Shown here in pieces: positions 1,700 to 57,827 of a stretch of 57,836 nucleotides of DNA (its first letter is position 1; the number at the start of each line of letters is the position of its first letter). The notes under the pieces were generated by a model. That model made no database searches. It was given only the letters and a program-made list of their open reading frames with translations, and was not told the DNA's origin. The position numbers and the translations under genes are program-made. The DNA is from Myxococcota bacterium (GTDB lineage Bacteria > Myxococcota_C > UBA6777): NCBI GenBank assembly GCA_023150835.1, contig JAKLKB010000027.1:1-57836 (forward strand), given 5' to 3'.

Positions 1700-1819
1700 T
1701 ACGAAATCCGCCCATGGTGTGCGCCAACATATAGGGGCTGCCCCCTGTGGCTGCCCAACAACAAGGCGTCTACAGCGGATCACACCTACCCTTCGTGTAC
1801 ACTTCTCTCGGATATCGGA
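1700..1819 (+). mobile_element. Family A MITE-like element, copy A1
   Basis: Left end TACGAAATCCGCCC, central hairpin built from GGGGCTGCCCC/GGCTGCCC, right end CGGATATCGGA. It is flanked on both sides by TGA (1697-1699 and 1820-1822), read as a 3-bp target duplication. It sits in the leader of the acyl-CoA-binding protein gene. Confidence 0.85.
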
Positions 1820-7347: not shown

Positions 7348-8328
7348 ATGATCGAGCATCTTTCGCTAGAGATGTTTCAAGACGATATCGAGGACTTTGA
7401 ACGCAGCGTGATCGCAATGCCCGATATATCGACGGTTTGCACAGCGAGCGACTGGCAGATCGCAGCATACGAACGATTGAGCGATCACAGAGAATCGCGC
7501 ATCATCCGAAGAGATACCACGTGGATGCTATTTTGCATCGGCCCCGTTAACCGCTACCGTCGCGTACTTCAACCTTTTGAGATGAGTTGGGCTTTTGGCA
7601 CTCCTCTCGTGGGCGAAGATATCGAAGCCTGTGTCCAATTGAGCTTAGAAGTGTTGTTGCAAGATCGTCCATCATGGGAGATGGCGGTGTTTAGCGGACT
7701 TCCCGAAGACGGAGCATTGGCGATTGAACTGCTCCGAACGTTGGGGGCGCACTTTCACAGCGAAAGCATCGCAGGCAGTCACTGTGATCAAGCGTTTTTG
7801 CATGACGGCCTTGATGCGTGGCTCGAACGGCGCAGCCGAAACTTTCGCGTGAGCTTGCGCAAAAGTGAACGCGCCGCGCAAGAACAAGAGATCGCGTTTG
7901 AATGGATCGATGGAGTGTGCGATGGCGCGGCCTTGTTGGAGCGCATCTTTCAGATCGAACGCCGCTCATGGAAAGGCGAATCAGGCAAAAGCATTTACCG
8001 AAACCTCCCCTACAGACGATTTTACGAAACGCTTTGCACACGCATGGGAAAACGCGGCTTGTTGCGAGCGATCTTTGCGCAGCACGAAGGAAAAGATATC
8101 GCGTATGCCTTCGGCGGTATCGTAGGTTCGGTCTATCGGGGGTTTCAGATCAGCTACAACGATCAATTTGCTGCGCTCGGTTTGGGAAATCTCTTGCAAT
8201 GGTGGCAGATGCAAAAACTCGCCGAAGAAGGGATCACGCTCTACGATCTCGGGATGGAGATGGCCTACAAAAAACGCTGGGCTGATCGGCTCCAACGCTT
8301 TCAGACGCTGCTCTTTGTCAGAGGTTAA
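7348..8328 (+). CDS. GNAT-fold acyltransferase-like protein (BioF2/CelD-type)
   Basis: A 326-aa protein with the arrangement of the BioF2-like/CelD acetyltransferase group. A divergent N-terminal half is followed from about 160 by a GNAT-like domain with RRSRNFRVSLRKSERAA, ERRSWKGESGKSI, AYAFGGIVGSVYRGFQISYN and LYDLGMEMAYKKRWA. Such proteins transfer an acyl or aminoacyl group, often in envelope polysaccharide modification; the substrate here is unknown. ATG at 7348 follows GAGGAAAGC. The TAA stop (8326-8328) is also the left target duplication of repeat A2. Confidence 0.8.
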   Translation: MIEHLSLEMFQDDIEDFERSVIAMPDISTVCTASDWQIAAYERLSDHRESRIIRRDTTWMLFCIGPVNRYRRVLQPFEMSWAFGTPLVGEDIEACVQLSLEVLLQDRPSWEMAVFSGLPEDGALAIELLRTLGAHFHSESIAGSHCDQAFLHDGLDAWLERRSRNFRVSLRKSERAAQEQEIAFEWIDGVCDGAALLERIFQIERRSWKGESGKSIYRNLPYRRFYETLCTRMGKRGLLRAIFAQHEGKDIAYAFGGIVGSVYRGFQISYNDQFAALGLGNLLQWWQMQKLAEEGITLYDLGMEMAYKKRWADRLQRFQTLLFVRG

Positions 8329-8440
8329 TACGATATCCGCAAGATGCGTACACAAAGAACAGTACGTAGACGCCCTATGGTTGGGCAGCTACAGGGGGCT
8401 GCCCCTACGTTTTGCGATCACACAATGGACGAATCTCGCC
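8329..8440 (-). mobile_element. Family A MITE-like element, copy A2
   Basis: Starts TACGATATCCG, has the hairpin GGGCAGCTACAGGGGGCTGC, and ends AATCTCGCC. It is flanked by TAA at 8326-8328 and at 8441-8443. The left TAA is the stop codon of the GNAT gene. Confidence 0.88.
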
Positions 8441-8469
8441 TAACCACCGCGCCTATCCGATCAAGGCGA

Positions 8470-9144
8470 TCATGACGACTTGGGTGTGTCGGGCTGTATG
8501 TCGGGCGCAGCCGACCGAAACGCATCCAAAGCTCCTGCGGTCGAAGCCACCCGCGCAATCGTCGGATAATCCGCCATCTCGACCCTAAACCGATCAGCGT
8601 TATAGACTTGCGGAACGATCAACACATCCGCAAATGTCACCTGCTCCCCCACAGCAAACGCCCCTGCGGTCTGCACCAACAACCGCTCCAACCCCTCAAA
8701 CCCTCGTTCGATCCAGTACTTTGACCAAGCAAGCGTTTGTTCCCGCGTCACGCCAAACTGCGCTTGTAGCTGCTGCATCACTTTGAGGTTTTGAATCGGC
8801 TGGATCGAGCTATTGATGATCTGCATGATCTGACGAACACGCGCTCGATCTTCTGGGGCTTTCGGAAGCAACGCAGGATGCGGATAACACTCTTCGAGAT
8901 ACTCCAAGATCGCCGTCGATTGGGCCACTGCAAACCCCGGCGCTCCAACACGCTCCACCCACAACGTCGGTAGCTCCGCCATCGGGTTGTATTGCAAATA
9001 GCTTTCTTTGCGATGCTGGCCCCCATCCTCGATCAAATTCACCGCATGGTACGTGTATTCCAAGCCTTTCCACGCCAGTGCGATCCGCACACGATACGAA
9101 GCACTCGAACGAAAATAGCTAAACAGCGTAAGACGTGCATCCAT
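8470..9144 (-). CDS. maiA: Maleylacetoacetate isomerase
   Basis: A 224-aa zeta-class GST-like protein that isomerises maleylacetoacetate to fumarylacetoacetate in tyrosine/homogentisate breakdown, using glutathione. The signature SYFRSSASYRVRIALAWKG is at the N-terminus, followed by NPMAELPTL and QSTAILEYLEE in the thioredoxin domain, and a helical C-terminal domain with VTFADVLIVPQVYNADRF. ATG at 9144 has GAAGGAG 11 nt upstream; a longer in-frame reading exists but lacks a binding site. The gene lies directly downstream of fahA on the same strand and should be co-transcribed. A 38-bp segment spanning its start is a copy of one at the end of fahA. Confidence 0.95.
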   Translation of the reverse strand: MDARLTLFSYFRSSASYRVRIALAWKGLEYTYHAVNLIEDGGQHRKESYLQYNPMAELPTLWVERVGAPGFAVAQSTAILEYLEECYPHPALLPKAPEDRARVRQIMQIINSSIQPIQNLKVMQQLQAQFGVTREQTLAWSKYWIERGFEGLERLLVQTAGAFAVGEQVTFADVLIVPQVYNADRFRVEMADYPTIARVASTAGALDAFRSAAPDIQPDTPKSS

Positions 9145-9240
9145 CGGCTTTACGACTCCTTCTTCCAAGACCAACTTCTCGATTGTCGTTTTGGGTGTTC
9201 TTGACGTGCATCCATCGGCTCTACGACTCCTTTTTCCAAG
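9132..9240. repeat. 38-bp direct duplication, 71-bp period
   Basis: The segment 9132-9169 (ribosome binding site, ATG and first codons of maiA) is nearly identical to 9203-9240 (last codons and stop of fahA plus the following ATG). Only two positions differ. It appears to be a local tandem duplication of the fahA-maiA junction. Confidence 0.9.
9150..9215 (-). CDS. 21-codon mini-ORF from duplicated maiA start
   Basis: The duplicated copy of the maiA ribosome binding site and ATG opens a 21-residue frame (MDARQEHPKR...KKES) that ends 5 nt before the true maiA ATG. It begins 5 nt after the fahA stop and carries AAAAGGAG in front. Whether it is translated is unknown; it could couple fahA to maiA or simply be a relic of the duplication. 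Confidence 0.4.
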   Translation of the reverse strand: MDARQEHPKRQSRSWSWKKES

Positions 9241-10210
9241 GCTTCACGGTTTGAGCGATCGCGCCAAAGATCGACCGGCCACCTTTCTTCATCTCGATGC
9301 GCACCGTATCCCCAAAACGCATAAACGGTGTTTTGCTCTCCCCTTCCTCGATCTTCTCGATCATCCGACGCTCTGCCAAACAACAACTCCCCGTCGAGCG
9401 ATCTTTGTTTGAGATGGTCCCTGATCCAAGGATCGTCCCCGCCCCCAAGGGCCGCGTCTTGGTCACATACGCGATCAGCTCGGGAAACGAAAACTGCATC
9501 TCAGGCCCTGCGTTGGGATGCCCGAACCATGCCCCGTTGTATTCGACTTCCAAAGGAAGGTGGACTCGCCCGTCCTGCCACGACTCGCCTAACTCGTCGG
9601 GTGTCACCGCAAACGGCGAAAAAGCCGTTGGTGGCTTGGAAACCACAAAACCAAATCCCTTCGCCAACTCCGCAGGGATCAAGTTTCGCAACGATACATC
9701 GTTGGCCAACATCAAAAGCCGGATGTAGCCGAGCGCATCGCTCGCCTTCGTCCCATAAGGAACATCGCCCGTCACCACCGCAACTTCCGCTTCAAAATCA
9801 ATCCCCCATTCCTCCGAAGCATGGACGATATCTTCGGTCGGACCTAAAAATGTGTCCGAACCGCCTTGATACATCAATGGATCTTCATAAAACGAAGCGG
9901 GAACCTCGGCCCCTCGGGCTTTTCGCACAAGCTCAACGTGATTCAAAAAGGCCGACCCGTCCAACCACTGATACGCTCGTGGCAACGGCGCATGAAGACG
10001 ATCCACTTCGATCGCAAAAGCCCCCTCCACACGATCGGATTGGAGCGCCTCAAACAACCCCCGCAATGGGCCTTCAACCTCTTCCCAACACTCCAACGCC
10101 TCCTGCATCGTCCGTGCGATCCCTGCCGCCTTAACAGCCCGCTCACCCGCCCGATCCACCACCAACAGCACACCATCGCGGCTGCCATCTCGCAACGTCG
10201 CCAACTTCAT
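9221..10210 (-). CDS. fahA: Fumarylacetoacetate hydrolase family protein
   Basis: A 329-aa FAH-family hydrolase, cleaving fumarylacetoacetate to fumarate and acetoacetate in tyrosine catabolism. Recognisable parts: the YEDPLMYQGGSDTFLGP segment, the metal-binding acidic residues in IDFEAEVAVV, the NDVSLR motif and the GSGTISN loop. ATG at 10210 has AGGAGG 6 nt upstream; a TTG two codons earlier is less likely. It ends in KKES, whose AAGGAG serves the next start. It is paired with maiA. The homogentisate dioxygenase gene is not in this window. Confidence 0.92.
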   Translation of the reverse strand: MKLATLRDGSRDGVLLVVDRAGERAVKAAGIARTMQEALECWEEVEGPLRGLFEALQSDRVEGAFAIEVDRLHAPLPRAYQWLDGSAFLNHVELVRKARGAEVPASFYEDPLMYQGGSDTFLGPTEDIVHASEEWGIDFEAEVAVVTGDVPYGTKASDALGYIRLLMLANDVSLRNLIPAELAKGFGFVVSKPPTAFSPFAVTPDELGESWQDGRVHLPLEVEYNGAWFGHPNAGPEMQFSFPELIAYVTKTRPLGAGTILGSGTISNKDRSTGSCCLAERRMIEKIEEGESKTPFMRFGDTVRIEMKKGGRSIFGAIAQTVKPWKKES

Positions 10211-10421
10211 CCACAACCTCCTGATTTCGCTGATCTATCCGACAAAAACTCCGAAAGCATAGGCATTTCTGGCCGCCTGTCAAGCAACCCCCCCCTGCAA
10301 ACAACCCACGCTACGGCCTCCCCCAGCCATCCCCCACAGCACCGTCATTTCGACAATAACTCGAATAAGACAAAGATGGATTCTTACACAATACACTACC
10401 GAAAAGATTTTAATTTTTAGA

Positions 10422-10450
10422 TTGACGAGACCCGTGAAAAAGAACATACT
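10422..10450 (+). promoter_or_regulatory. Probable sigma-70 promoter
   Basis: TTGACG (10422-10427), 17-bp spacer, CATACT (10445-10450), preceded by an A/T-rich stretch. It faces the membrane protein gene starting at 10698 and implies a leader of roughly 240 nt, in which I see no conserved structure. Confidence 0.55.
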
Positions 10451-10697
10451 TCATTCATGTTCGCCTTTGAAAGAAAACGAATTCCTTTGTTTTTTCTCGA
10501 CCATCAAGAAGGCTTCTCGACAAAAACCAAACAACAGCCGATATCACAACCGCTTAGAACGAACCCAAAGAAACACCTGCTTCTTGAGATCAACGCGACA
10601 CAGGAGTCTTCGCGCACAAACAAAACGACACCACGCAGAAGCATTCACTCGGGTCCATCGCTTTCAGCGAAAACCGCAAAGACCAAAAGTAACGCCC

Positions 10698-11918
10698 ATG
10701 CAATACCCCATACCACCGCTCTTTTCGACCTCGCCGCTGAAACAAAAAAAGGCTCCGCCTCGCGTCCTCTGTCAGGGGGGAAGCCTTGTACTTCATGGTC
10801 TTTGTGGCGGATTGCTCTTGTGTACACAACACGAACCGCTGTGCTGGCTCTTTCTTCTTCTGTGCTGGCTGCTGGTTGCGGCCTCGCAAGGCTTTCTCTT
10901 ACGAACCACACGGAGCCGACTTCAGGATATCTTGGCCCCAACACTTGTCATCTCTTTGCTCATTTTCCTGACAGAACACCCCCAACAAGCACTGTTTTTT
11001 GGGGCGGGACTCCTGCTGATTGGAACCTTCTTCGCTGCGGGTTATGCGCGCATCTACCAAGATCGCCTGCTTCAAGAACGCTCCGCCTTGCGTACACAAG
11101 TCGCCCTTTACTCCGCATGGCAAACTCACAAACAAGCCCAGATCGAACAAGAACTCGCAGGGCGCTTGCTCTTGGAACAGCATCAGGCCAACAACTTACT
11201 TTGCGGCATCGTTTTACACGTCAACATCGCCTCCTCACTCCTCGACTCCGGCCTCTTTGAACCTCACCCCACCACCCCACACGCTCCAGATACCACCCAA
11301 GAACTCCAACAAAATATCCTCGATCTCACCGAGACTTCGCGCAAACTCCAACATCTTTTCGCCGAACAACTCGAACTCACCGCCCCCGAACAGCTTCGGC
11401 GGTCCAGCCAAGGCCGCCCCATCGACCTCTGTGATGCCTTTGCCCGCGCCCAACACCGCACACAAATCGCTCTACCCGACCTCTCCATCCTCGATCTCTC
11501 CGAATACAACGGCTCCTTATTCCTCCCAGAAGATCTCGATCTTCCCGCTTTTTTCTTTGATCTCTTTTGTATGCTCTCCCAAAGCCAACCCCATCCAACC
11601 CTCCATTTTACAACACAACACTTCCCCCACGCCCACCCTCCCGCCTTGCGCATCGAGCTCCAAGGCATCCCCGATCCCACTCTGCCCAAACGCCATCCCC
11701 ACCAAGCCTCCGCTTCCTCGATCGAACTCTTCCTGTCTTGGCTTCACCTCTTCCTTGACCTGCGCGGAGGACGCCTGATCTCCCCACCCAGCCCTACGCC
11801 CTCCAACTTCCCGCCTCCTCACGGATATCGAGAATTACCGAGCCTGATCTTCGATCTCCCCGTTCTTTCCGTCTCCCACCGCATACCCCCCCACAAAACA
11901 ACGGGGCCTGCTCGATAA
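10698..11918 (+). CDS. Membrane protein resembling a degenerate sensor kinase
   Basis: A 406-aa protein. The first 40 residues are polar, then three or four hydrophobic segments (about 40-120) contain Trp/Leu/Cys-rich helices. A helical linker follows with EQELAGRLLLEQHQANNLLCGIVLHVN, reminiscent of a histidine kinase dimerisation helix, although the H-E/N-x-R/L pattern is not intact. The C-terminal half resembles a much reduced ATPase region (DLRGGRL near the end) without clear N or G boxes. I therefore call it sensor-like only. ATG at 10698 lacks a strong binding site; the frame is open further upstream but without ATG. Its stop overlaps the first 28-bp repeat copy. Confidence 0.5.
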   Translation: MQYPIPPLFSTSPLKQKKAPPRVLCQGGSLVLHGLCGGLLLCTQHEPLCWLFLLLCWLLVAASQGFLLRTTRSRLQDILAPTLVISLLIFLTEHPQQALFFGAGLLLIGTFFAAGYARIYQDRLLQERSALRTQVALYSAWQTHKQAQIEQELAGRLLLEQHQANNLLCGIVLHVNIASSLLDSGLFEPHPTTPHAPDTTQELQQNILDLTETSRKLQHLFAEQLELTAPEQLRRSSQGRPIDLCDAFARAQHRTQIALPDLSILDLSEYNGSLFLPEDLDLPAFFFDLFCMLSQSQPHPTLHFTTQHFPHAHPPALRIELQGIPDPTLPKRHPHQASASSIELFLSWLHLFLDLRGGRLISPPSPTPSNFPPPHGYRELPSLIFDLPVLSVSHRIPPHKTTGPAR

Positions 11919-12000
11919 CTCTCGGGTGGCTTTTGTTTTGCGCAAACTCTCAGGCGACTTTTGTTTTGCGCAAGCTCTCAGGTGACTTTTGTTTTGCGCA
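11917..12000. repeat. 28-bp tandem repeat, 3 copies
   Basis: Three contiguous copies (11917-11944, 11945-11972, 11973-12000) centred on GGCTTTTGTTTTGCGCA. The array overlaps both the stop of the membrane protein gene and the last codons of the convergent SDR gene, whose C-terminus therefore lies inside the third copy. There is no spacer between copies. Confidence 0.95.
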
Positions 12001-12769
12001 ATATCCGAGAAAACAGCGCAGGAACGAAGCGTTTGAGGTAAACCCCCATCACTTCGCGCCCTCCGATGTAGACTTCTTCTTTTTTCTTCGCAAGCGCACG
12101 CAAGATCTTTTGCGCACACACCTCCGCAGGCATCCCGTTGGCTTGGGCCTGATCCATCGTCCCTTGCGACGATCCATCCCCAACAAGCGCGTTCACCGAA
12201 ACGGCGGTCTTGATATACCCCGGGCAGATCACTGTCACCGCGATCCCGTCTTGCCACGTCTCTGCGCGCAACGCATCACAAAAACCATGCAGCGCGTGTT
12301 TCGACGCTGCATACGAAGAGCGCAAAGGCGTACCAAACTTCCCAACGAGGCTTGTCACCATCGCGATATGCCCGCAACGACGGGCGATCATCGACGGCAA
12401 CAGCGCTTTGGTCAAAGCGATCGTCCCAAAATAGTTGATCTCCATAATCCGCCGATCCACCGCAAGGCTGGTGTCTTTGATCAATGCGCGTTGCGATATA
12501 CCGCCATTGTTGATCAACAGATCGACCTGCCCAAAGCGGCCCAGCGCCTGTTCCACCTTGCTTGGCATCTCTTCCGCCTTCTCCAGATCCAATGGCAAGA
12601 TCATCACGTCTTGTTCGCTTCGACCACAACGGCGCTTCACTTCCTCCAACACCTCTCCACGCCGTGCAGACAAGATCAAACGCGCACCCACCTCCGCATA
12701 CGCCAGCGCCAACGCTTCTCCTATCCCCGAAGATGCTCCTGTAATCCATACGACTTTTTCTCTTAACAT
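11978..12769 (-). CDS. Short-chain dehydrogenase/reductase
   Basis: A 263-aa classical SDR. Cofactor motif TGASSGIG at 10-17, the LLINNGG variant of NNAG, and the catalytic Ser-Tyr-Lys set with SSYAASKHALHGF. Length and the C-terminal extension resemble DHRS7B-like SDRs, which act on lipid or steroid-like carbonyls, but the substrate is not determinable. ATG at 12769 has GAGG 5 nt upstream. The last four codons run into the 28-bp tandem array. Confidence 0.92.
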   Translation of the reverse strand: MLREKVVWITGASSGIGEALALAYAEVGARLILSARRGEVLEEVKRRCGRSEQDVMILPLDLEKAEEMPSKVEQALGRFGQVDLLINNGGISQRALIKDTSLAVDRRIMEINYFGTIALTKALLPSMIARRCGHIAMVTSLVGKFGTPLRSSYAASKHALHGFCDALRAETWQDGIAVTVICPGYIKTAVSVNALVGDGSSQGTMDQAQANGMPAEVCAQKILRALAKKKEEVYIGGREVMGVYLKRFVPALFSRILRKTKVT

Positions 12770-12812
12770 CCCAGCCTCTTGTGTTTTTAACGCCTTCGCG
12801 TTTGTTTTCTGA

Positions 12813-12830
12813 ACGGAAAACGTATTCCGT
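12813..12830. promoter_or_regulatory. Inverted repeat, possible operator
   Basis: ACGGAA, 6-bp spacer AACGTA, TTCCGT. It lies in the divergent region between the SDR and the cysteine-repeat lipoprotein genes and could bind a dimeric regulator. No regulator is known. Confidence 0.3.
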
Positions 12831-12986
12831 CTGTGCTATCTTGTGGTACTCGATCTTCGACCCCAAAGCCACCGCAGAGGCGCTTTGAACCGACGCTTGA
12901 ATCGCAACACCCAAGGATATCTTTTCCCGCAACGCAAGCATCCAAAACCATTGAATCGCAACATCCCTTGCATCTGGAGTTTTTTT

Positions 12987-15470
12987 ATGATCCGAGCCTC
13001 CAAACGACCTCTCCCCACCCTGCGGCTTGTGCTGTTGGGGTTCGTGTTGTTTCTCGGCAACAACAGCCTCGGCTGCATCACGATCATCGCAGAGTGTCTC
13101 GAAGACACCAACTGCCCCGCAGCCCGCAAGTTCTGCATCGCAGGACGTTGCCGCGCCTGTCGCAACGACAAAGACTGTGAAGCCGGACAATACTGCGCTT
13201 TTTGGGCTTGCCAACCCGATCCACGCGGTAGCTTCGCTACTTGCGGAGACAGCGTTTGTGATCCCCGCGAAAACTGCCGAACATGCCCTGCGGATTGCGG
13301 TGCATGCACCAGTGCTTCGTGCGGAAACCAACGCTGTGATGTCGGAGAAGATTGCAAAACCTGCCCCTCTGACTGTGGCCCTTGCGCGCAAACCTGCAAC
13401 GACAAGATCTGCCAAAGCACTGAAACCTGCAAAACCTGCCCCGATGACTGCGGAAAATGCAAAGAACAGTGCGGAAATGCTGTGTGCGAACAAAACGAAG
13501 ATTGCACCATATGCGAAGCCGACTGCGGAAAGTGCGCCACTTCCTGCGGAAACGCCAAGTGCGAACTCTCCGAAAATTGCCAAACCTGCCCCCAAGACTG
13601 CGGAAAATGCTCAGACAACTGTGGCGACACGATCTGTCAAGATAACGAAGACTGTAAAAATTGCCCCCAAGACTGCGGAAAATGCGCCACTTCCTGCGGA
13701 AACGCCAAGTGCGAACCAAACGAAGATTGTAAGACTTGCGAAGCCGACTGCGGAACCTGTCAAGCCAAATGCGGTGACAAGATCTGCCAAAATACCGAAA
13801 CCTGCGCTTCTTGCCCCGAGGACTGCGGCCCCTGTCCCGCCACTTGCGGCGATGGAAAGTGTGAACAAAACGAAGATTGTAAGACTTGTGCCCAAGACTG
13901 CGGTCCCTGCCCTGCCACCTGCGGCGACAAGTCCTGTGGAATCGGCGAAGACTGCAACAACTGCCCCGATGATTGCGGAAAATGCGCCCCCAACTGTGGA
14001 AACAAGATCTGCAACGCAGACGAAAACTGCAAGACCTGCCCCCAAGACTGCGGAACCTGCGCCCCCAACTGCGGAAACGCCAAATGCGAACCCGGTGAAA
14101 CCTGCAACAACTGCGCTCCTGATTGCGGAAAATGCGAACCCAAATGCGGAAACAAGATCTGCGATACCAACGAAACGTGCAGCGATTGTCCCGATGATTG
14201 CGGCACTTGCCCGATCCAATGCGGCAACGGAAAATGCGAAACGGGCGAAACATGCACCTCTTGTCCAAAAGACTGCGGTGCTTGTCCTCCCCAATGCGGC
14301 GACGGAAAGTGCGAAACGGGCGAAACATGCACCTCTTGTCCAAAAGACTGCGGCCCCTGCCCCGATCAATGCGGCGATGGCGTCTGCGGTCCCACCGAAG
14401 GATGCAGCACCTGCCCCGCCGATTGCAAATCCTGCGCAGGTCAAAAGTGCCAAACGGACGCAGAGTGCGGAGCAGGCTTCTTGTGCCTCGAACCCGATTA
14501 CAACAACCCTGCCAAAGACAAGTTTTGCTTCCAAAGCTGTAGCAACGATCTTCTCCGCTGCTTGAGCAATACCGATGGCCGCACCCGTTGCGCCCCACTG
14601 ACCGCCTCTTTGCGCGTCTGCCTCAAAGACGCCAAAGCCTCCGAAGACTGCGGCCAAAAAGCCAAATTCCAATCCCGTTGTCTCGATAACCCTCCCCTCT
14701 ATTGCAGCGCCACCAGCAGCCTTTGCCAAACACCCACCATCCAAACACAGCCCGGCGCGGCTTGTGATATCCCACCCTACACCACAGAGCCTCCCAAACT
14801 CTGCGACCCCAACCAAAAACTCGTCTGCGATCCACAATCCAAAACCTGCACCGCTGCCCAACAAAGCGACGAAGGCAAAGAGTGCGATCCTTCGGGTCTG
14901 GTTCTCGGTCAAAAAGTCTTGTGTACGGGTTCTCAATTGTGCATCGACTTTGGCCCTTTTGGTCAGCGCTGCCACCGCCCATGCAGCGTCGGTGCGCCCG
15001 ATGCTTGCGCCCACAACACCGACCTGTCTTGCCAAACAATCTCTTTTGCGCCCGGATCTCCGAGTGTTTGCATGGATCTCAAATGCAACAGCGATGCAGA
15101 TTGCGCTTTTGTAGATTACGTCTGTAGCGGTACGCCCGGAACCCCCAAAGTTTGCCGCCCGCCCGGCCCTGTCGGCCCCCTCGACTTTGGCGCAGTGTGC
15201 AGCACAGATCCCACCCAAGCCAAAACCTCGGGATGCAAAAGCGGCCTGATCTGTATCCCACGCACCAACAGCCAATCCCTCGGCGTCTGCTCTCGTGATT
15301 GCACCGTCGATGCAACCGTTTGTCAGCCCTTCTCTGTAGGCGGCACCACCTACATCACCCAATGCGAGTCCTCCACCCTCGGCTTCAAAGCCTGCGGCGT
15401 TCTTTGCCAAGGCGGTTCGCTGCAATGCCCCCCCGCCACTTCCTGCAACAACGGGCGTTGCGCTCCCTAA
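12987..15470 (+). CDS. Lipoprotein with sixteen 25-residue cysteine repeats
   Basis: An 827-aa exported protein. A hydrophobic signal segment ends in NNSLGC, a plausible though non-ideal lipobox. After a short Cys-rich region come sixteen consecutive 25-residue units of the pattern C-G-x3-C-x5-C-x2-C-x3-D-C-G-x-C (about residues 80-480), each carrying six cysteines and conserved acidic residues, suggesting disulfide-bonded or calcium-stabilised modules forming a rod. The C-terminal ~340 residues are a second Cys-rich region with CNSDADCAFVDYVC-type units. ATG at 12987 has GGAG 7 nt upstream; a longer upstream reading is not signal-like. PNGase F-like lipoprotein follows after 43 nt. Function unknown; surface adhesion or structural role is an inference. 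Confidence 0.85.
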   Translation: MIRASKRPLPTLRLVLLGFVLFLGNNSLGCITIIAECLEDTNCPAARKFCIAGRCRACRNDKDCEAGQYCAFWACQPDPRGSFATCGDSVCDPRENCRTCPADCGACTSASCGNQRCDVGEDCKTCPSDCGPCAQTCNDKICQSTETCKTCPDDCGKCKEQCGNAVCEQNEDCTICEADCGKCATSCGNAKCELSENCQTCPQDCGKCSDNCGDTICQDNEDCKNCPQDCGKCATSCGNAKCEPNEDCKTCEADCGTCQAKCGDKICQNTETCASCPEDCGPCPATCGDGKCEQNEDCKTCAQDCGPCPATCGDKSCGIGEDCNNCPDDCGKCAPNCGNKICNADENCKTCPQDCGTCAPNCGNAKCEPGETCNNCAPDCGKCEPKCGNKICDTNETCSDCPDDCGTCPIQCGNGKCETGETCTSCPKDCGACPPQCGDGKCETGETCTSCPKDCGPCPDQCGDGVCGPTEGCSTCPADCKSCAGQKCQTDAECGAGFLCLEPDYNNPAKDKFCFQSCSNDLLRCLSNTDGRTRCAPLTASLRVCLKDAKASEDCGQKAKFQSRCLDNPPLYCSATSSLCQTPTIQTQPGAACDIPPYTTEPPKLCDPNQKLVCDPQSKTCTAAQQSDEGKECDPSGLVLGQKVLCTGSQLCIDFGPFGQRCHRPCSVGAPDACAHNTDLSCQTISFAPGSPSVCMDLKCNSDADCAFVDYVCSGTPGTPKVCRPPGPVGPLDFGAVCSTDPTQAKTSGCKSGLICIPRTNSQSLGVCSRDCTVDATVCQPFSVGGTTYITQCESSTLGFKACGVLCQGGSLQCPPATSCNNGRCAP

Positions 15471-15513
15471 TTCGGCTCGCCCCCCAGCGGACCGCAGAAC
15501 CAAAGGAATCCCC

Positions 15514-16851
15514 ATGCACCACCACCCCTCCGATCTTTGCGTGCAAACTGCACACAAGCACGCGACCGTTCCAAACAACCCAAAACAAAAGCACGCCTCT
15601 TTTTTTCGGATGCCTTGTTTCGTTTTCTTCGTAGCTGCCTTGTGCGGTGCGCTTGTGCATCTCGCTTGCGATCCCAAACCAAGCACCGAAAACGCCGTCG
15701 AATCCGCCCAAGAACTCACCCCCGAATCCGCCCAAGAATCCACCCAAGACACCACCCCCGACGCAAGCCCCGAAGCCACCGCCGAACCTGCACCCGAACC
15801 TGCACCCGAACCCCTCGCAGAACCCACGCCCGAACCCGCAGCAGAATCTGCCCCCGAGATACCCAACGGCCCTCATACCCTCGCTGTATTCGATAAAATC
15901 ACCATCCACAGCAACGGCGATGTCAACGTCCGCCAAGCCCTCTCCCCCTTTCGCTTTTTCCACTCTTCCTTTCAACGTGTCGTCCTGCGTGTACAACTAG
16001 AGACGACTTGTTTTCCCTTTGAGAAGTGGCAACAAGATCCGCCTCCGCCCGGGCACAACTGGCCCCCCAAGTGCGATGCCTTTGACCGCAACTTCGACTT
16101 TCACCTCGACCCCGCGCCCGATGCCCCCAAAGGCACCCCCGCCATCGAACTGGTGCGTGCGATCACTCCTTTTGGTGGCCCCATGCAGTTCCAAGCCGAT
16201 ATCACCGATATCGCCAACGGACTCAAAGGCGGCGCACACACCATGCGCGTCAATATCCAAACCTATTCCGACGGCCAAGGAAAAGTCTCTGGCTCCAATG
16301 GACAATGGACCGTCTCTGCATTTCTTGATGTCGTGCCTTCTGACACACCCAGTCGTATTCTTTCTGTTCAACCGCTGTTTAACCACAACCACACCGACAA
16401 GATGACCCGCCAATCCGCCACCTTCACGATCCCCCAAGGCGCAAAAACAGCTTATCTCCTGTACCGTGTGACGGGACACGGCGGTGGCACCGCAGATGCG
16501 GCCTGCATCGGCCACGCCGACGAATTCTGCCAACGCACCCACAAACTTTATTTCAACGATCAACTCGCCCACGAATGGATCCCTTGGCGAAAAGATTGCG
16601 CCAAACTCTGCACCCTCCAAAAACGCGGAACGATGGAGTATTGCGCCGAAAATCCATGCGGCTCCATCCAAAGCGTTCGCGCCCCCCGCGCCAACTGGTG
16701 TCCCGGTAGTGTCACCCCTCCCTACGTCCACTTGCTCCCTGCGGATATCGTTCAAAAAGCAGGCTCGCATCAGTTCGATTACGAGATCCTTGGCATCGCT
16801 CAAGGCGGCTCGTGGAAAGTCTCCGCAACCCTCGTTGTGATCGGACCTTAA
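15514..16851 (+). CDS. PNGase F-like lipoprotein
   Basis: A 445-aa protein. A long polar N-region precedes a hydrophobic stretch ending HLAC, a candidate lipidation site near residue 52. A Glu/Pro/Ala-rich linker (about 56-115) leads to two beta-sandwich domains resembling peptide-N-glycosidase F. The C-terminal one has YRVTGHGGGTADAACIGHADEFC-like spacing, then EWIPWRKDC and RANWCPGS, all typical of that family. Family members cleave N-glycans from asparagine or have lost activity; catalytic residues cannot be assigned with certainty here. ATG at 15514 follows AAAGGA; an internal ATG at 15610 gives a shorter leader but lacks a binding site. Probably co-transcribed with the preceding lipoprotein gene. 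Confidence 0.75.
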   Translation: MHHHPSDLCVQTAHKHATVPNNPKQKHASFFRMPCFVFFVAALCGALVHLACDPKPSTENAVESAQELTPESAQESTQDTTPDASPEATAEPAPEPAPEPLAEPTPEPAAESAPEIPNGPHTLAVFDKITIHSNGDVNVRQALSPFRFFHSSFQRVVLRVQLETTCFPFEKWQQDPPPPGHNWPPKCDAFDRNFDFHLDPAPDAPKGTPAIELVRAITPFGGPMQFQADITDIANGLKGGAHTMRVNIQTYSDGQGKVSGSNGQWTVSAFLDVVPSDTPSRILSVQPLFNHNHTDKMTRQSATFTIPQGAKTAYLLYRVTGHGGGTADAACIGHADEFCQRTHKLYFNDQLAHEWIPWRKDCAKLCTLQKRGTMEYCAENPCGSIQSVRAPRANWCPGSVTPPYVHLLPADIVQKAGSHQFDYEILGIAQGGSWKVSATLVVIGP

Positions 16852-16871
16852 ACTCCGTTCTGATTTGATCA

Positions 16872-16984
16872 TACGATATCCGAGTGATGTGTGATCGTAA
16901 GATAGTACGTAGACGCCCTATTCTTGGGCAGCCACAGGGGGCTGCCCCTACATTTTTACGATCACACAACGGGCGGATCTCGTG
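16872..16984 (-). mobile_element. Family A MITE-like element, copy A3
   Basis: TACGATATCCG left end, hairpin GGGCAGCC/GGCTGCCC, GGGCGGATCTCGTG right end, flanked by TCA at 16869-16871 and 16985-16987. This TCA pair shows that the duplicated trinucleotide is TNA rather than always TAA. Confidence 0.9.
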
Positions 16985-17000
16985 TCAGTCCTATCTACAC

Positions 17001-17114
17001 AGGACTTGCGCAGTTGAAAAGGGAAACCCTGAGATATCAGAACGTTGTAGGGGCGGTTCGCGAACCGCCCACGCCCGAACATCTGCCTTTTTCGTATCGA
17101 ACTGCGTAAGTCCT
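17001..17114. mobile_element. Family C MITE-like element
   Basis: 15-bp inverted ends AGGACTTGCGCAGTT (17001-17015) and AACTGCGTAAGTCCT (17100-17114), one mismatch. The centre holds a perfect 20-bp palindrome GGGCGGTTCGCGAACCGCCC (17051-17070). ATCTACA flanks both sides (16993-16999 and 17115-17121); with TCCT the match extends to 11 bp. It sits 16 bp from element A3, upstream of the HEAT gene. No transposase is encoded. Confidence 0.85.
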
Positions 17115-17270
17115 ATCTACAATTCACACCTAATTTTTTTGAACATCGCGCAGACAGCCCCCGTCTATCCCGCCGACCTATCAAACGCTGTGGTCGTCGA
17201 CTTTTGCCCAAAACAACGGCAAATCGGCGACCATCGCGTATCAAATCCCCCCATTCGATCGGTCGCGGCG

Positions 17271-18758
17271 ATGAAACACAAACGCAACGCACGGAACACC
17301 CGCTCCCCCCATCAGCCCCACCAAGATATCAACTTTGAACTCGGTGCCTCCGGCCTTTGTCACGAAGGCCAGATCTACAAAGAGCAACACAACCACTGGG
17401 AGATGTACTACTACAGCGCCTGCGGCTGCGGGTGTTGCGCTAACCGATACGATTACGTCCCCCCCCCTCCTGCCTACGCCATCGAGGCCATCCCTTCGGC
17501 TCTTTTGCCCTTCCTTCAACTTCCCCCAGAACGGATCTCTGAGTCTCTTGATCTTCCGTCGTTTGATGTCTGGGATCTTGTGCCTTTCTTCCACGAATTC
17601 ACCCGACGTTTTCCTCACTCGATCTTCTCTCTACGCCTACTCGAATCCATCCTCTCTCGTACTCCTGAAGAACAACGCGAGCAAGTAGCCCGGGCTTGCC
17701 GAGCGGCCATCCGACGCCTTCGACTCCGATCTGCCGACGCCATCCCCCACCTCACAACCATCCTTGATCTGTTGCTCCCCACCTTCGAGCAACGCTCCCT
17801 GTTGTTTGCGATCGCAACGATGGGAACGCTCGCTGCGCCGCTCTTGCCTCGCCTCTATCAGTTCGCAAGCGCCTACGATATCGAACTCTGCGCCCAAGCC
17901 GCCCACACCCTCAGTCTGCTTGGACCTCGCGATCCCCTCGTCCTCCAATGCCTACAACGTATCCTCCAACGCCCTTTGAACCCGTACTCCAACAGCGGCC
18001 AACCACATCCCCAACTTGGTGCCTTGCTTGCCCTCGATCGCATGGGAGAAATGGCCCGTCAAATCCTTCACGATGTCCAAGCCCTGTCTCTCAACGATCA
18101 TCCTGCCCTAATCAAAGCATGGACCCGCATCATCGGGAAGTTTCAGCACAATCCCAACACCAACATCCCTAGGCTGGAACGATGGCTCCATCACGACGAT
18201 CCCAGTGTCCAAGAAACGGTTGTCATGGCTCTGGGCAAATTCGGACACCACGCCGCCACCCCCAACGTTTTTCAACACCTCCTTCTCTTCATCACCCAAC
18301 CCAAGCAGCAACGACGACACGAAGCCTCTTTGCGCACGCTTGCCAAGATCTGCCGCCCTCCACAGATCCCCGCCCTGTGTACAGCACTCCAACAACACTT
18401 ACAAAGCGCCCCCACCGACCTTTTCGATCTCCCGCTCCTCCAACATCCCCCACATCATCGAGAGCAGATCGCTTTTTTCTTCCATACTCTCGCTGCAATT
18501 CTTCGTATCCTTTCTGATCTATCTCGCCGCAACAAAGGTTGTTCGTTTCCTTATTCACCAACGGCCCTTTCGCTGCTCTGCTCTTTTGCTCAACGTCTCC
18601 AAGGCCCGCACGTCTTGCTATGGAAAAGCCTCTTTTCGACACAACCCACGGCCTCTTACGAGATGATCCTCCGCTCGCTCCTCGACTTCCTTGATGCCGT
18701 CCCAACTTCACCCGATCCGCGCCTTCACAAAGAATTTGAAGAAGCACTTTTCTCCTAA
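17271..18758 (+). CDS. HEAT-like repeat protein
   Basis: A 495-aa protein, not assigned to a known family. Residues 1-75 are polar with a striking CGCGCC cluster (about 48-53) that might bind metal. The remainder is alpha-helical, with repeated helix pairs of HEAT/Armadillo type, for example LLPRLYQFASAYDIELCAQ and DDPSVQETVVMALGKFG, suggesting a protein-binding solenoid. ATG at 17271 is the first in frame after elements A3 and C, without a strong binding site, so the start is uncertain. Its stop is 4 nt from the stop of the convergent MazG-like gene. Confidence 0.7.
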   Translation: MKHKRNARNTRSPHQPHQDINFELGASGLCHEGQIYKEQHNHWEMYYYSACGCGCCANRYDYVPPPPAYAIEAIPSALLPFLQLPPERISESLDLPSFDVWDLVPFFHEFTRRFPHSIFSLRLLESILSRTPEEQREQVARACRAAIRRLRLRSADAIPHLTTILDLLLPTFEQRSLLFAIATMGTLAAPLLPRLYQFASAYDIELCAQAAHTLSLLGPRDPLVLQCLQRILQRPLNPYSNSGQPHPQLGALLALDRMGEMARQILHDVQALSLNDHPALIKAWTRIIGKFQHNPNTNIPRLERWLHHDDPSVQETVVMALGKFGHHAATPNVFQHLLLFITQPKQQRRHEASLRTLAKICRPPQIPALCTALQQHLQSAPTDLFDLPLLQHPPHHREQIAFFFHTLAAILRILSDLSRRNKGCSFPYSPTALSLLCSFAQRLQGPHVLLWKSLFSTQPTASYEMILRSLLDFLDAVPTSPDPRLHKEFEEALFS

Positions 18759-18762
18759 AAAT

Positions 18763-19092
18763 CTATAGCTTATCGTACTTTGAACTCGATCCTTTGGACT
18801 TTTCTATGGGGTATTTTTTTTTATTCTTTTCCAGCTTCGCAAGCACGATATCCGCCACATCCAGCCGATAATGCGCCGCCAACAACAACGCCCCATAAAA
18901 CACATCGGCCAACTCATCTTTCAACCCCTCCATCTCCACATCGTCCCCTTTTTTCCACAAAAACAACTCCAATAACTCCCCTGCTTCGACGTTCAAGCTG
19001 ATCGCCAGATCTTTGCCTGTGTGATACTGCGCCCAGTCCCGCTCGTCGCGAAAAGCCAAGATCGCCTCTGTTAATCGTTTGAGATCGCTCAT
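18763..19092 (-). CDS. MazG-like nucleotide pyrophosphohydrolase
   Basis: A 109-aa single-domain all-alpha NTP pyrophosphohydrolase of the MazG/RS21-C6 group. The metal-binding helices are present as EAGELLELFLW and KDELADVFYGALLLA, giving the EExxE plus ExxD-like acidic set. These enzymes hydrolyse (deoxy)nucleoside triphosphates such as dCTP to monophosphates. ATG at 19092 has AAGGA about 6 nt upstream. Gene stands alone. Confidence 0.9.
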   Translation of the reverse strand: MSDLKRLTEAILAFRDERDWAQYHTGKDLAISLNVEAGELLELFLWKKGDDVEMEGLKDELADVFYGALLLAAHYRLDVADIVLAKLEKNKKKYPIEKSKGSSSKYDKL

Positions 19093-19559
19093 CTTTTTCC
19101 TTCAGTTCAGTGCCCATCGCATACTCTAGCCGCAAGATGACACCAACGACACGCGGCTGGATCGACCCATCGTGTTTCCTTGAGCGGGCGTCCTCTCCGC
19201 TTCGGGCCTTGCATAAGATCGCGTGATTTGTCAACCCAGCCCGCCCTTTCTACTCGAACAACCACCCCGACAAACACCGCGTCTTCTCTATCTCCAACAC
19301 AAGATATCGGATTTTTTGACGCCTTCACATTCCCCCGCTAGGCTTCTGCAAAGGCGCGTGGCGCTCTGTAATACGATATCCGAGAGATGTGTACACAAAG
19401 GAGAGTTCGTAGATGCCCTATGATCGGGCAGCCACAGGGGGCTGCCCCTACATCTTTACGCACACAACGGGCGGATCTCGTATAAAGCATCCTTGTATCG
19501 CGGTGCCCTCTTTTCGTCGCTGTATTTTTTATTTTTTGTCTGATGATTAGGAGAAGAAT
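19093..19559. other. Intergenic region holding element A4
   Basis: Apart from repeat A4 at 19372-19482 and a T-rich stretch just before 19560, no gene or clear promoter is visible in this gap. Confidence 0.5.
19372..19482 (-). mobile_element. Family A MITE-like element, copy A4
   Basis: TACGATATCCG left end, hairpin GGGCAGCCACAGGGGGCTGC, CGGATCTCGTA right end. TAA flanks both sides (19369-19371 and 19483-19485). Both ends are close to consensus, so this copy is a good reference. Confidence 0.92.
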
Positions 19560-20315
19560 ATGTCTCTTATGCAAAACTGGAACAACAGCGTTTTCCAAAA
19601 AAGACGTGTTTGCGGCCCTTTGAGCGGCTGCGTGGTGGGTTTGGAAACCTCTGTTCGCTCCGCCAACACGGGGTCAAGGGGGCGACGCTCCCTTGTGGGG
19701 TCTGGGGCAAAGCCCCACCATGCCTACAAACAGCATACGTCGCATCCAAACAACGCATCTTCTCCGTACCACCGTCTTTTTCGTGCGTGTTGGTGGGTGT
19801 GTGGCCTTTGGTTTTTTCTTTGGATGACTCCCCAACAGGCTGTTGCAAACCCTTTTGCAAGCAACCTTCCCTCCAAAGTGGGCGTGGGGGTGGGCTATGA
19901 TGTCGATCTCAATGGCTTTACGATCCGTTTTGGCGACTTAAAAGGTGTGCGTTTTGACATCAATCTGGGCTTTGGTTTGAACCTTCAAACAGGCAATAAT
20001 TCCTCAACCACCGTCGATATCACCCCCGGATTTCGAGTCTTGTTTCCGATCGGCTCTGTTCGCGTTGTCCAACTGCATGCTGTGGTGGGAACCTACCTGC
20101 TGATGAAGCCCACCGATGCAGCCTTTCGGATGGATCTATCGCTCTTTGGTGGCTTGATGCCTGAGATCTTTTTGTTCGAGCAGTTGAGTATCGAGATCAT
20201 GGTTGGATTTGCCTTCAACATCAACAATATCGGCGGGGATGTCACGCTCAACCTCGGAACCATCGGCAAAGGGATCTCTTTCCTGAGCGGCGCGGCTTTT
20301 CACTGGTACTTCTAA
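19560..20315 (+). CDS. Outer-membrane-like beta-rich protein with repeat in its 5' coding end
   Basis: A 251-aa frame. ATG at 19560 has a strong AGGAGA site. Codons 6 to about 59 are the family B repeat B2 read in frame, giving a basic, low-information peptide. A normal signal sequence then appears (WWVCGLWFFLWM, cleavage near AVANPF). The mature part (about residues 99-251) has alternating hydrophobic strands (GVGVGYDVDLNGFTIRF, RFDINLGFGLNLQTG, LSIEIMVGFAFNINNIGG) and ends in Phe, consistent with a beta-barrel. The native start might instead lie just before the signal sequence, but no ATG is there. Function unknown. Confidence 0.65.
   Translation: MSLMQNWNNSVFQKRRVCGPLSGCVVGLETSVRSANTGSRGRRSLVGSGAKPHHAYKQHTSHPNNASSPYHRLFRACWWVCGLWFFLWMTPQQAVANPFASNLPSKVGVGVGYDVDLNGFTIRFGDLKGVRFDINLGFGLNLQTGNNSSTTVDITPGFRVLFPIGSVRVVQLHAVVGTYLLMKPTDAAFRMDLSLFGGLMPEIFLFEQLSIEIMVGFAFNINNIGGDVTLNLGTIGKGISFLSGAAFHWYF
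19576..19735 (-). repeat. Family B hairpin repeat, copy B2
   Basis: Reverse orientation, with the core AACACGGGGTCAAGGGGGCG and hairpin GGGGTCTGGGGCAAAGCCCC. It lies inside the 5' coding end of the envelope protein gene and keeps that frame open. Confidence 0.85.
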
Positions 20316-20356
20316 AGGTTATGCTCACAGCACAACGCTCACAAAGGAGTCCAATC

Positions 20357-20863
20357 ATGTCCGCCTGTTTGTTGCCTTCCGCGATCCCCATCACATCGCG
20401 AATTTCACGGGTGTTCTCTGCACTGGCTTGTCTGCTTCCGCTGCTTTTGCTTGCCTGTGGAAAAGGCTCGTCCGTCTGGCCAAGTACCAACCCGTTCAAC
20501 CACAACGGCAGCGCCAACACCCTCAACCATCGCGGCCAAGAGTCCCCCACCAACCACAGCGGCAGCAACAACAATCTCAACCACAGCGGAGAAGCCAACA
20601 ATCCGATGTCTTACGGGACGTACGGAAAAAAAGGCGCGACAGAAGCAGGCCCGCTGCGTTGGCATCTTTGTAACTGCCTTGTCGTCCCGTCCGAGGGCCT
20701 GATCATACCGCGTAGAACTTACAGCGTTTGTGCAACAAATCCCATTAACGCAGAGACTTATTCATCAAGCAAATGTCGTCCATTATTACCTTCTTGGCAG
20801 CGATGCAGTGCCTGTGTTTGTACGCCTGTGTTTGCCTGTTCGACGCTCGGGGCCTCGCTTTAG
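20357..20863 (+). CDS. Small lipoprotein with NHSG-type repeats
   Basis: A 168-aa protein. A hydrophobic signal segment ends in the good lipobox LLAC (LLLLACGKG). The following region contains Asn/His/Ser/Gly-rich repeats (NHNGSANTLNHRG, NHSGSNNNLNHSG), then a Cys-containing C-terminus with seven Cys in about 65 residues. ATG at 20357 has AAAGGAGT 7 nt upstream. It lies 41 nt after the envelope protein gene, probably in the same transcript. Not recognised. Confidence 0.65.
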   Translation: MSACLLPSAIPITSRISRVFSALACLLPLLLLACGKGSSVWPSTNPFNHNGSANTLNHRGQESPTNHSGSNNNLNHSGEANNPMSYGTYGKKGATEAGPLRWHLCNCLVVPSEGLIIPRRTYSVCATNPINAETYSSSKCRPLLPSWQRCSACVCTPVFACSTLGASL

Positions 20864-20870
20864 CGCATTA

Positions 20871-20984
20871 GACGAAATCCGCCCGTTGCGTGATCGTAAT
20901 GAGGTAGGGGCAGCCCCCTGTGGCTGCCCAATAATCGGACATCTGCGTACTCTCGTTTGCTGTGTACATCACTCGGATATCGTA
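20871..20984 (+). mobile_element. Family A MITE-like element, copy A5
   Basis: Left end GACGAAATCCGCCCG (one base off consensus), hairpin GGGGCAGCCCCCTGTGGCTG, right end CGGATATCGTA. It is followed after 3 nt (TGA) by copy A6, so the two are head-to-tail; flanking trinucleotides are TTA and TGA and do not match. Confidence 0.8.
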
Positions 20985-20987
20985 TGA

Positions 20988-21073
20988 GACGATATCCGCC
21001 CATAACGTGAAACAGGTCGGGGCCGCCACAGAGGGCGGCCCAAGCACAGGGCGTTTACAACGGCTCGCATCGG
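20988..21073 (+). mobile_element. Family A variant, copy A6 (no right end)
   Basis: Left end GACGATATCCGCCC, then a diverged centre with GGGCCGCC/GGGCGGCCC and AGGGCGTTTACAAC. The right end is not recognisable before the convergent regulator gene stops at 21082. The same variant centre recurs in copy A10. Confidence 0.65.
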
Positions 21074-21081
21074 CACCGCGA

Positions 21082-22635
21082 TTACACGACGGAGAGCGGG
21101 GGAGGTGTGGAGTCTTCGGATTCTTCGTCTTCTGTCGAAGCATCATCGCGGCGAATACCGTATTTTTTCATTCGGTTGTAAAGCCAAGAACGGTTGAGAT
21201 CGAGGACCCGCGCCGCTTCCGAAACATTCCAATGGCACTCTTCGACCGTTTGTCGGATCAGACGAGCCTCGGTTTGTTCCATGGCTTCTTTGAGCGTAAG
21301 TCGCCGCCCGTGTTCATCGAAAGGAAAGGCAGGGGCAGCGGCCTCTTTGGTGGCCGAAGCAGGAGGTGGTGGATTCGTGGAGGGCGGAGCGATCGGCGCA
21401 GCAGCGGGGGCAGGTTCCGCCAAGACAGCGATCGGCTCAGAAGAGGCGCGTGGATCGAGCTCGGCGTGAGGAAGCTCGATATCTGGCGCATCAAGGATGG
21501 CGCGCTCGTTAAAGATACAAGCGCGCTCTAGCACGTTGCGCAACTGCCGGATATTTCCGGGCCAATAATAGCTCGCGAGTTTTTCGTAGGCGGCCTCTGT
21601 CAAGGAGGCACGTTGGGCGATCTGCATACGGCTCAACAAGAGTTCGACCAAGAGCGGAAGATCTTCGGTTCGCTCGCGCAAGGGGGGAACCTCGATCTCG
21701 ACCACGGCAAGGCGATAAAACAGATCTTCGCGAAACTTCTTTTCGCTCACCAGTTTGCGCAAGTTGTGGTTGGTTGCAGCGATCAGACGAAAGTCCACTT
21801 GGATCTCTTGGATGCCTCCAAGACGGCGGATACAGCGGCGCTCGATCGCATCGAGCAGCTTCACTTGCAGTTCAAACGGCAGATCGCCGATCTCATCGAG
21901 AAAAAGCGTCCCGCCGTGAGATTGTTCAAAGTACCCCTTGTGTTGTTTGCGCGTGGCCCCCGTAAATGCGCCTTGTTCGTAACCAAAAAACTCCGATTCG
22001 ACCAAGCTCGCAGGGATCGCCGCGCAATTGACCGTAATCAACGGGCTTTGCTTGCGAACGCTTTGTTCGTGTAGCGCTTGCGCGATGCTACTTTTTCCTG
22101 TACCCGTTTCTCCCGTCAACAAGACGGGCATCTCTCGCTGTCCAAGCCGCGCCAAAAGTGAAAAGATACGCCGCATCTTTTCGCTTTTTCCAACAAGTTG
22201 TGCGCTGTTATCGAAGAAATTGACTTGGATCTTGGTGGGATTTTCGTACGCTTTCAACACCAAGACGGATCGGCCCAGTTGAAGGCGGGTATTGGGCCGC
22301 CAATAGGCATCAAGGACGCGATGCCCTTCCAAAAACACCCCATTGCGGCTATCCAGATCGCGCACGCGCACGCCGTGTTCGTCCAACAAGATCTCGCAAT
22401 GAAGGCTGCTGATGCGCTTGTCTTCGGTGAGCGGGAGATGGCGGATCTCCGAGCGTCCCACTTCCGAGATCTCTTGGTTGAGCGGCAAGGTAAAGCCTTC
22501 GTGGGGGCCTTCCACCACCTCCACCGTATAACCGCGAACCACCATGCTCGAAGAGCGCAACGGACTCCAATCTTCCATGCGTAGCGTGGTGAGTGCTTCT
22601 TTGGGTTCTTTTGGGCGCGGGATCGGCTTGTCCAT
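21082..22635 (-). CDS. Sigma-54-dependent activator with FHA domain
   Basis: A 517-aa regulator. Residues about 45-125 form an FHA domain (VGRSEIRHLPLTEDKRISSLHC, then DLDSRNGVFLEG), which reads phosphothreonine. Residues about 147-375 are the AAA+ domain: Walker A TGETGTGKS, the sigma-54 contact loop GAFTGA, Walker B GTLFLDEIGDL and the R-finger region. A Pro/Ala linker leads to a Fis-type HTH (WNVSEAARVLDLNRSWLYNRMKKYGI). The combination links Ser/Thr kinase signalling to sigma-54 promoters and is typical of Myxococcota-like genomes. A kinase partner is plausible (giant kinase at 25.8 kb) but unproven. ATG start at 22635. Confidence 0.95.
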   Translation of the reverse strand: MDKPIPRPKEPKEALTTLRMEDWSPLRSSSMVVRGYTVEVVEGPHEGFTLPLNQEISEVGRSEIRHLPLTEDKRISSLHCEILLDEHGVRVRDLDSRNGVFLEGHRVLDAYWRPNTRLQLGRSVLVLKAYENPTKIQVNFFDNSAQLVGKSEKMRRIFSLLARLGQREMPVLLTGETGTGKSSIAQALHEQSVRKQSPLITVNCAAIPASLVESEFFGYEQGAFTGATRKQHKGYFEQSHGGTLFLDEIGDLPFELQVKLLDAIERRCIRRLGGIQEIQVDFRLIAATNHNLRKLVSEKKFREDLFYRLAVVEIEVPPLRERTEDLPLLVELLLSRMQIAQRASLTEAAYEKLASYYWPGNIRQLRNVLERACIFNERAILDAPDIELPHAELDPRASSEPIAVLAEPAPAAAPIAPPSTNPPPPASATKEAAAPAFPFDEHGRRLTLKEAMEQTEARLIRQTVEECHWNVSEAARVLDLNRSWLYNRMKKYGIRRDDASTEDEESEDSTPPPLSVV

Positions 22636-24127: not shown

Positions 24128-24240
24128 TACGAGAGCCGCTCGTTGTGTGATCGTAAAGACGTAGGGACAGCCCCCCGTGGCTGCCCAATAATCGGGCGTC
24201 TGGGCACTATCCTTTGTGTACACATCACTCGGAGATCGTA
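24128..24240 (+). mobile_element. Family A MITE-like element, copy A7
   Basis: TACGAGAGCCGCTCG left end, hairpin GGGACAGCCCCCCGTGGCTG, GGAGATCGTA right end. TAA flanks both sides (24125-24127, 24241-24243). The left one is the stop codon of the symporter gene. Confidence 0.92.
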
Positions 24241-49299: not shown

Positions 49300-49409
49300 T
49301 ACGAAATCCGCCCGTTGTGTGATCGTAAAGAGGTAGGGGCAAACAGGTGTGGCCCAATAATAGGGCGTCTACGCACTGTCCTTTGTGTACGCATCACTCG
49401 GATATCGAA
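49300..49409 (+). mobile_element. Family A MITE-like element, copy A8
   Basis: TACGAAATCCGCCCGTTGTG left end, a centre with a partly lost hairpin (AGGGGCAAACAGGTGTGGCCC), GGATATCGAA right end. TAA flanks both sides (49297-49299, 49410-49412); the left is the channel gene's stop codon. Confidence 0.9.
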
Positions 49410-57533: not shown

Positions 57534-57585
57534 TACGAGATCCGCTCGTTGCGTGATCGTAAAGAGGTAGGGGCAGACAGGTATG
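57534..57585 (+). mobile_element. Family A element fragment, copy A9
   Basis: Left half only: TACGAGATCCGCTCGTTGCG, then the conserved GTAGGGGCAGACAGG, after which similarity stops. It begins 6 nt after repeat B6. Confidence 0.75.
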
Positions 57586-57706: not shown

Positions 57707-57827
57707 TACGAGTTCCGTCCATGAAGTACGTGAAAAAGTAGGGGCAGACAGGTGTGGCTGCCCAATCACAGGGCGTTTACAACAAATCGCATCGACACTT
57801 TTGGATACGCTTTTGACGGATATGATA
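57707..57827 (+). mobile_element. Family A variant, copy A10
   Basis: TACGAGTTCCGTCC left end, GTAGGGGCAGACAGGTGTGG centre, AGGGCGTTTACAAC and a right end CGGATATGATA. Shares the AGGGCGTTTACAAC block with copy A6. No gene is seen from 57361 to the window end. Confidence 0.7.

Follow-up and report, generated by a model that had tools for sequence, protein, structure and literature searches.

Introduction

Insertion sequences of the IS1031 group take TNA as their target, and the PIF/Harbinger MITEs of eukaryotes (Tourist) are bordered by a 3-bp TWA-like duplication. Three target bases have been described as a common feature of the IS1031 group (PMC2516522). BrickBuilt, MITE464, and MITE239 of Porphyromonas gingivalis are IS5-type MITEs with about 19 copies (PMC4596501). 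RUP, Correia elements, and ERIC, of the IS630 type with a TA target, are 100–150 bp long, form hairpins, lie mostly between genes, and reach high copy numbers (PMC2229807).

Here, we analyze a MITE family of a Myxococcota genome with copies placed exactly on stop codons. In the literature searched, mostly excluding subscription papers, no such pattern was reported for MITEs or insertion sequences.

Results

A Large MITE Family with Copies on Stop Codons

The window, i.e., the whole stretch of 57,836 nucleotides analyzed, is contig 170 of a draft genome of 7.56 Mb in 239 contigs. All six copies named in an earlier sequence-only reading were present with the flanks given there, and the left TAA of three of them is indeed the stop of a gene, ending at 8328 (GNAT), 24127 (MFS_2 transporter), and 49299 (MscS-type channel). 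The copies and their host sites are as follows:

1700..1819, + strand: MITE copy, intergenic, TGA on both sides
7348..8328, + strand: GNAT gene (Acetyltransf_6), the stop of which is the target
8326..8328, + strand: left TAA of the target duplication, the GNAT gene stop
8329..8440, - strand (relative to the family profile): MITE copy of 112 bp, TAA on both sides, right end decayed (..TCTCGCC)
8441..8443, no strand: right TAA of the target duplication
16872..16984, - strand: MITE copy, intergenic, nearest to the profile, TCA on both sides
19372..19482, - strand: MITE copy at no called stop, TAA on both sides
20871..20984, + strand: seventh full-length MITE copy, TTA on the left and TGA on the right, adjoining a truncated copy head-to-tail
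20989..21061, + strand: truncated MITE copy, left part
24128..24240, + strand: MITE copy, TAA on both sides, the left one being the stop of the MFS_2 transporter gene (22823-24127)
49300..49409, + strand: MITE copy, TAA on both sides, the left one being the stop of the MscS-type channel gene (45880-49299)
57534..57585, + strand: truncated (damaged) MITE copy, left end with a TTA flank
57707..57823, + strand: diverged (damaged) MITE copy

The element belongs to a large family of this genome, and the MITE family proposed by that reading was confirmed. It is short and non-coding, with a 113-bp consensus that folds as a long hairpin (profile built from 105 copies of the Myxococcota genome), and its ends, TACGANATCCG, are imperfectly inverted over 11 bp. 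The genome-wide search for paired ends that had been proposed as a check found the strict pattern TNATACGANATCCG...CGGATNTCGTATNA at 125 perfect, TNA-flanked places and the reversed control pattern at none. The main set comprised 1.56 Mb, read mostly as 20-kb stretches (21% of the genome, contigs with copies being chosen), and the profile recovered 116 full-length and 114 partial copies from it. Extrapolation to the genome gives about 470 copies of full length among some 930 matches, on the basis that the stretches read hold 31 of the 125 perfect copies, with 26 expected from stretch length.

A genome of the same genus, G001, also carries the family, with 24 perfect copies; under the strict pattern, none were found in three other genomes of the same family and the other genomes searched. 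Rfam gave no match within 8200-25000 of the window, and the family had no match in plasmids and viral contigs.

Insertion Duplicates a TNA Target

In the full-length copies of the 1.56 Mb set, the bases beyond the MITE ends were T (82–91%), any base, and A (84–85%). Left and right trinucleotides agreed far above chance: of the 68 copies bordered by TNA left and right, 47 had identical triplets, compared with a mean of 17.5 and a maximum of 34 in 10,000 shuffles. For each gene whose stop carries a copy, the ortholog was then sought in G001, the one close relative compared, via the last 60 residues. Seven orthologs lacked the element, ended in TAA, and matched at 25–30 of the next 30 positions, and the alignment was gapless after removal of the element and one triplet. 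At these seven sites, the TAA stop was thus there before the insertion, which duplicated exactly 3 bp. Matching flanks and empty sites together establish that MITE insertion duplicates a 3-bp TNA target, and the stop codons hit were left intact behind C-termini that look natural. Both the duplication and the regeneration of the stop foreseen in the sequence-only reading were upheld. An IS630/Tc1-type TA duplication was discarded, given that the centre base of TNA is free and the empty sites show 3 bp.

The stops might also be a by-product, if a flanking TNA later became TAA or a gene was shortened to the insertion point. Some copies do carry TAA at the stop but TCA or TTA at their opposite edge, and the G001 ortholog of the window's MFS_2 transporter, which lacks the element, ends in TGA. 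However, the G001 stop was already TAA at the seven clean empty sites, which rules out conversion to TAA after insertion there, and the majority of G001 orthologs have their last residue at the same place, followed by TAA. The Pfam domains of the GNAT, MFS_2, and MscS-type genes of the window are near complete and reach close to the C-termini; hence, the gene ends look natural. Taken together, a by-product is most improbable.

At the other two window genes, G001 differs from an empty site. The GNAT gene has a MITE copy at the same place there (L144), so this insertion probably predates the split from G001. At the MscS-type channel gene, the same TAA is followed immediately in G001 by a different sequence, beginning GAGGGTGTCTAG.

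The target is wider than TNA: it reads GNNTNANNC, is palindromic, and favours an A/T centre. With the T of TNA as position 0, G is preferred at -3, C at +5, a purine at -1, and a pyrimidine at +3. In a site model of 8900 possible sites and 92 insertions, the odds were 2.55 each for G-3 and C+5, 2.6 for an A/T centre, 3.0 for a convergent gap, 4.0 for 0-60 bp past a stop, 8.5 for a TAA stop, and 0.7 for a TGA stop. Among non-stop sites, the more G/C matches a site had, the more it was used, over a range of 0.62 to 5.14% at A/T-centred and 0.23 to 1.97% at G/C-centred ones. The outer end of the MITE itself (..TCGTA) has G at the position favoured by the target, which may promote insertion beside an existing copy.

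The middle base differs in about 30% (16/55) of the TNA/TNA pairs of single copies. The mismatch shows no rise in more diverged copies, a pattern that simple decay does not require and that counts against our main reading. A special mechanism (circles, coupling sequences) was considered because head-to-tail arrays are common and an array of the form TAA-copy-TCA-copy-TAA occurs, but the mismatch rate of single copies is not clearly above that expected from decay of the flanks.

Gene 3′ Ends and Convergent Gaps Are Preferred

Genes were called with a purpose-written codon-model caller, and the counts per codon were reproduced with another calling scheme. The excess of copies at stops announced by the sequence-only reading is real: of the 105 TNA-flanked full-length copies in the 1.56 Mb, 29 coincide exactly with a stop, compared with 7.3% of the TNA sites available. 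In the stretches examined, 28 of 370 TAA-ended genes (about 1 in 13) carry the MITE exactly on the stop.

This spike is largely the peak of a broader preference for gene 3′ ends, combined with convergent gaps and the wider target, because the raised insertion odds (8900 sites) extend past the stops, being about 4-fold within 150 bp of them and 3-fold in convergent gaps. Convergent gaps hold 51 of 113 copies, and divergent gaps only 9. Overall, stops themselves were used about 2-fold more than the TNA sites lying 0-60 bp beyond them (26/705 vs. 24/1251). Relative to downstream sites (0-60 bp) with the same kind of centre, TAA stops were used 2.4 times as often (A/T-centred, p 0.023) and TGA stops 0.18 times as often (G/C-centred, p 0.08).

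At two loci (C18:6724-6828 and L184:4858-4970), the TAA stops of two convergent genes lie exactly at both element edges, which one 3-bp duplication alone cannot produce.

The distribution along the genes raised the possibility of pure harmlessness, in which any TNA is taken and copies at stops survive since the stop is restored, TAA and TGA being alike beyond the centre preference. The strong bias to 3′ ends and convergent gaps, with divergent gaps avoided, agrees with it, as does the 2.6-fold preference for A/T centres everywhere. It is nevertheless challenged by the two stop codons themselves, and we regard it as possible but rather unlikely.

TAA Stops Are Used and TGA Stops Nearly Spared

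Since TAA and TGA both fit TNA, the sequence-only reading implied that both stops would be used. This was contradicted: in the pooled data, 46 of 514 TAA stops carry the MITE and only 4 of 567 TGA stops (p 1.4e-11), although TGA is the commoner stop codon and TGA/TCA duplications are common away from stops. The contrast was first noticed in the first set (TAA 28, TGA 1, TAG 1) and then tested in two others, with the same outcome in a second set from the same genome (TAA 12, TGA 2) and in the G001 set (TAA 6, TGA 1). The second and third sets were sampled around known perfect copies, so the rates per stop are inflated in them, for both codons alike. In the three sets, copies on a TAA stop with a differing far-side TNA had TCA (7) or TTA (6) there, never TGA, the cases being few.

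The contrast held in convergent gaps (12/101 TAA vs. 0/124 TGA stops with a copy), in other gaps (11/236 vs. 1/242), and in every stratum defined by the flanking bases. Independently of gene calls, 31 of 48 TAA flanks terminate a raw open frame of at least 100 codons, as do 6 of 36 TGA flanks; in the control, the sense triplets TCA and TTA, the count is 10 of 89.

This bias is not what selection for harmless sites would give by itself, because a TGA stop is restored equally well. The contrast exceeds what the centre preference predicts (about 2.6-fold), and ordinary downstream G/C-centred sites are used as much as TGA stops, or more; the scarcity of copies on TGA is thus explained only in part. 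As a conjecture, readthrough may play a part: in the reading frame of the stop, 63 of the 116 copies are open in one orientation and 71 in the other, so a leaky TGA ahead of the MITE would give long extensions and such sites would be selected against. A target feature not recognised in this analysis may also contribute. A transposition system intrinsically preferring TAA stops as a safe haven where the duplication restores the codon, with TGA excluded, seems to us unlikely; the preference would stem from context outside the TNA or from transcription or translation where genes end.

Folding, Arrays, and Co-Resident Repeats

Location directly past genes and a strong hairpin (z -6.8 in the best window copy) suggested that the MITE might be kept after stops for a function, e.g., as a transcription terminator. 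One terminator-like site, at 8383-8404, was found in copy 8329-8440, near the shuffled number of 0.4, and the three window copies on stops fold less well. The T run occurs in only one MITE orientation, yet the orientation of the copies on stops relative to the gene was not significantly biased (31 vs. 20, p 0.16). The TAA-over-TGA bias is likewise left unaccounted for, making such a function very doubtful.

Neighbouring copies shared the same orientation in 52 of 54 pairs, suggesting that they arose by local tandem duplication and not by independent insertions. Head-to-tail arrays with short spacers, often TNA, were seen in the window (20871-21061) and at C97:20102-20330, C160:60244-60606, and C201:75244-75722.

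Other repeats accompany the family. A second family with ends GAGGGTGTTTGCGAAA and TNA-type flanks lies at L049 (contig 238), about 1463-2000, with an IS5 transposase remnant; further copies were found at C167:2655-3050, C97:17666-17901, C201:76126-76696, and C70:28037-28272, and it often adjoins the 113-bp MITE at a shared TNA. A third repeat, about 240 bp long (ATAGGCGTTAGGTGAAGCG..), is nested at about one point inside the MITE hairpin in several copies (C120:3767-4076, C201:76195-76563, C70:110701-111132) and also occurs elsewhere in the genome. The dispersed repeat CCCCACAAGGGACTATCGCCCCTTGGCCCCGTATCGGCG and its variants, mostly intergenic, were noted in the window at 1475-1536, 41682-41743, and 54457-54518, with related repeats at 19663-19732 and 57454-57523.

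Search for the Transposase

An insertion sequence with the same ends had been suggested as a further check, and none was found, either among long-range end pairs in the 1.56 Mb or beside the transposases found across the draft genome with the families PF13359, PF01609, and PF13586, where no gene with TACGANATCC ends was present. PF13359 (DDE_Tnp_4) had no genome match at E 0.001, and the PIF/Harbinger relation offered by the sequence-only reading was therefore not supported. PF01609 had five matches, none framed by MITE ends as one element. The long-range end pairs were rejected as an autonomous parent, as they enclosed only host genes, partial copies, the third nested repeat, and one IS630-like fragment, which sits between damaged MITE ends.

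The single PF13586 match is the IS5 remnant on contig 238, a transposase fragment above the cut-off of this family and below that of NF033580. It lies between GAGGGTGTTTGCGAAA ends, which differ from those of the MITE, and is flanked by TTA, showing that an IS5-type element with TNA-type duplication once lived in this genome. Regarding the likeness to IS1031/IS5 seen by the sequence-only reading, the TNA duplication stood and the transposase with TACGANATCC ends did not turn up. The IS1031/IS5 link, drawn from the TNA duplication, is a putative one: the MITE likely works like an IS1031-type MITE but is at most a candidate member of that group.

Discussion

We consider it probable that the family is a non-autonomous, hairpin-forming MITE mobilized via its TACGANATCC ends with TNA duplication, that its distribution at gene 3′ ends reflects mainly purifying selection, and that the TAA stop is both a good and a harmless target. 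A transposase acting on these ends, presumably of the IS5/IS1031 kind, would once have moved the element, duplicating the 3-bp TNA. Copies inside genes or promoters would have been lost by purifying selection, and those at 3′ ends would have stayed. The TAA stop, always a TNA with an A/T centre, would be favoured as a target and also harmless because the duplication restores the stop.

The family is an unusually clear natural record of a small transposon reaching high copy number in a gene-dense genome with the genes unbroken. The contrast between TAA and TGA turns into a testable question, namely whether the target itself or selection on stop leakiness decides which stops are usable.

Among known systems, the PIF/Harbinger MITEs (Tourist) differ in that all four centre bases occur here and PF13359 is without a match. 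The IS1031 group of the IS5 family resembles this MITE in the 3-bp TNA duplication, which was found here. The ends are different: those of the co-resident IS5 remnant and of ISPg1/ISNme1 begin GAG.., those of this MITE are TACGANATCCG, and they also depart from the IS5 ends listed (PMC4596501). RUP, Correia elements, and ERIC have inverted ends, size, hairpin, copy number, and intergenic position in common with it, but their target is TA, whereas this MITE combines a 3-bp TNA with a free centre, a marked TAA-stop pattern, and the roughly 470 full-length copies. BrickBuilt, MITE464, and MITE239 have a parent insertion sequence with the same ends present and duplications of varying length, unlike the family described here, with which they share the non-autonomous nature, intergenic position, nesting beside other MITEs, and internal tandem expansion in some copies.
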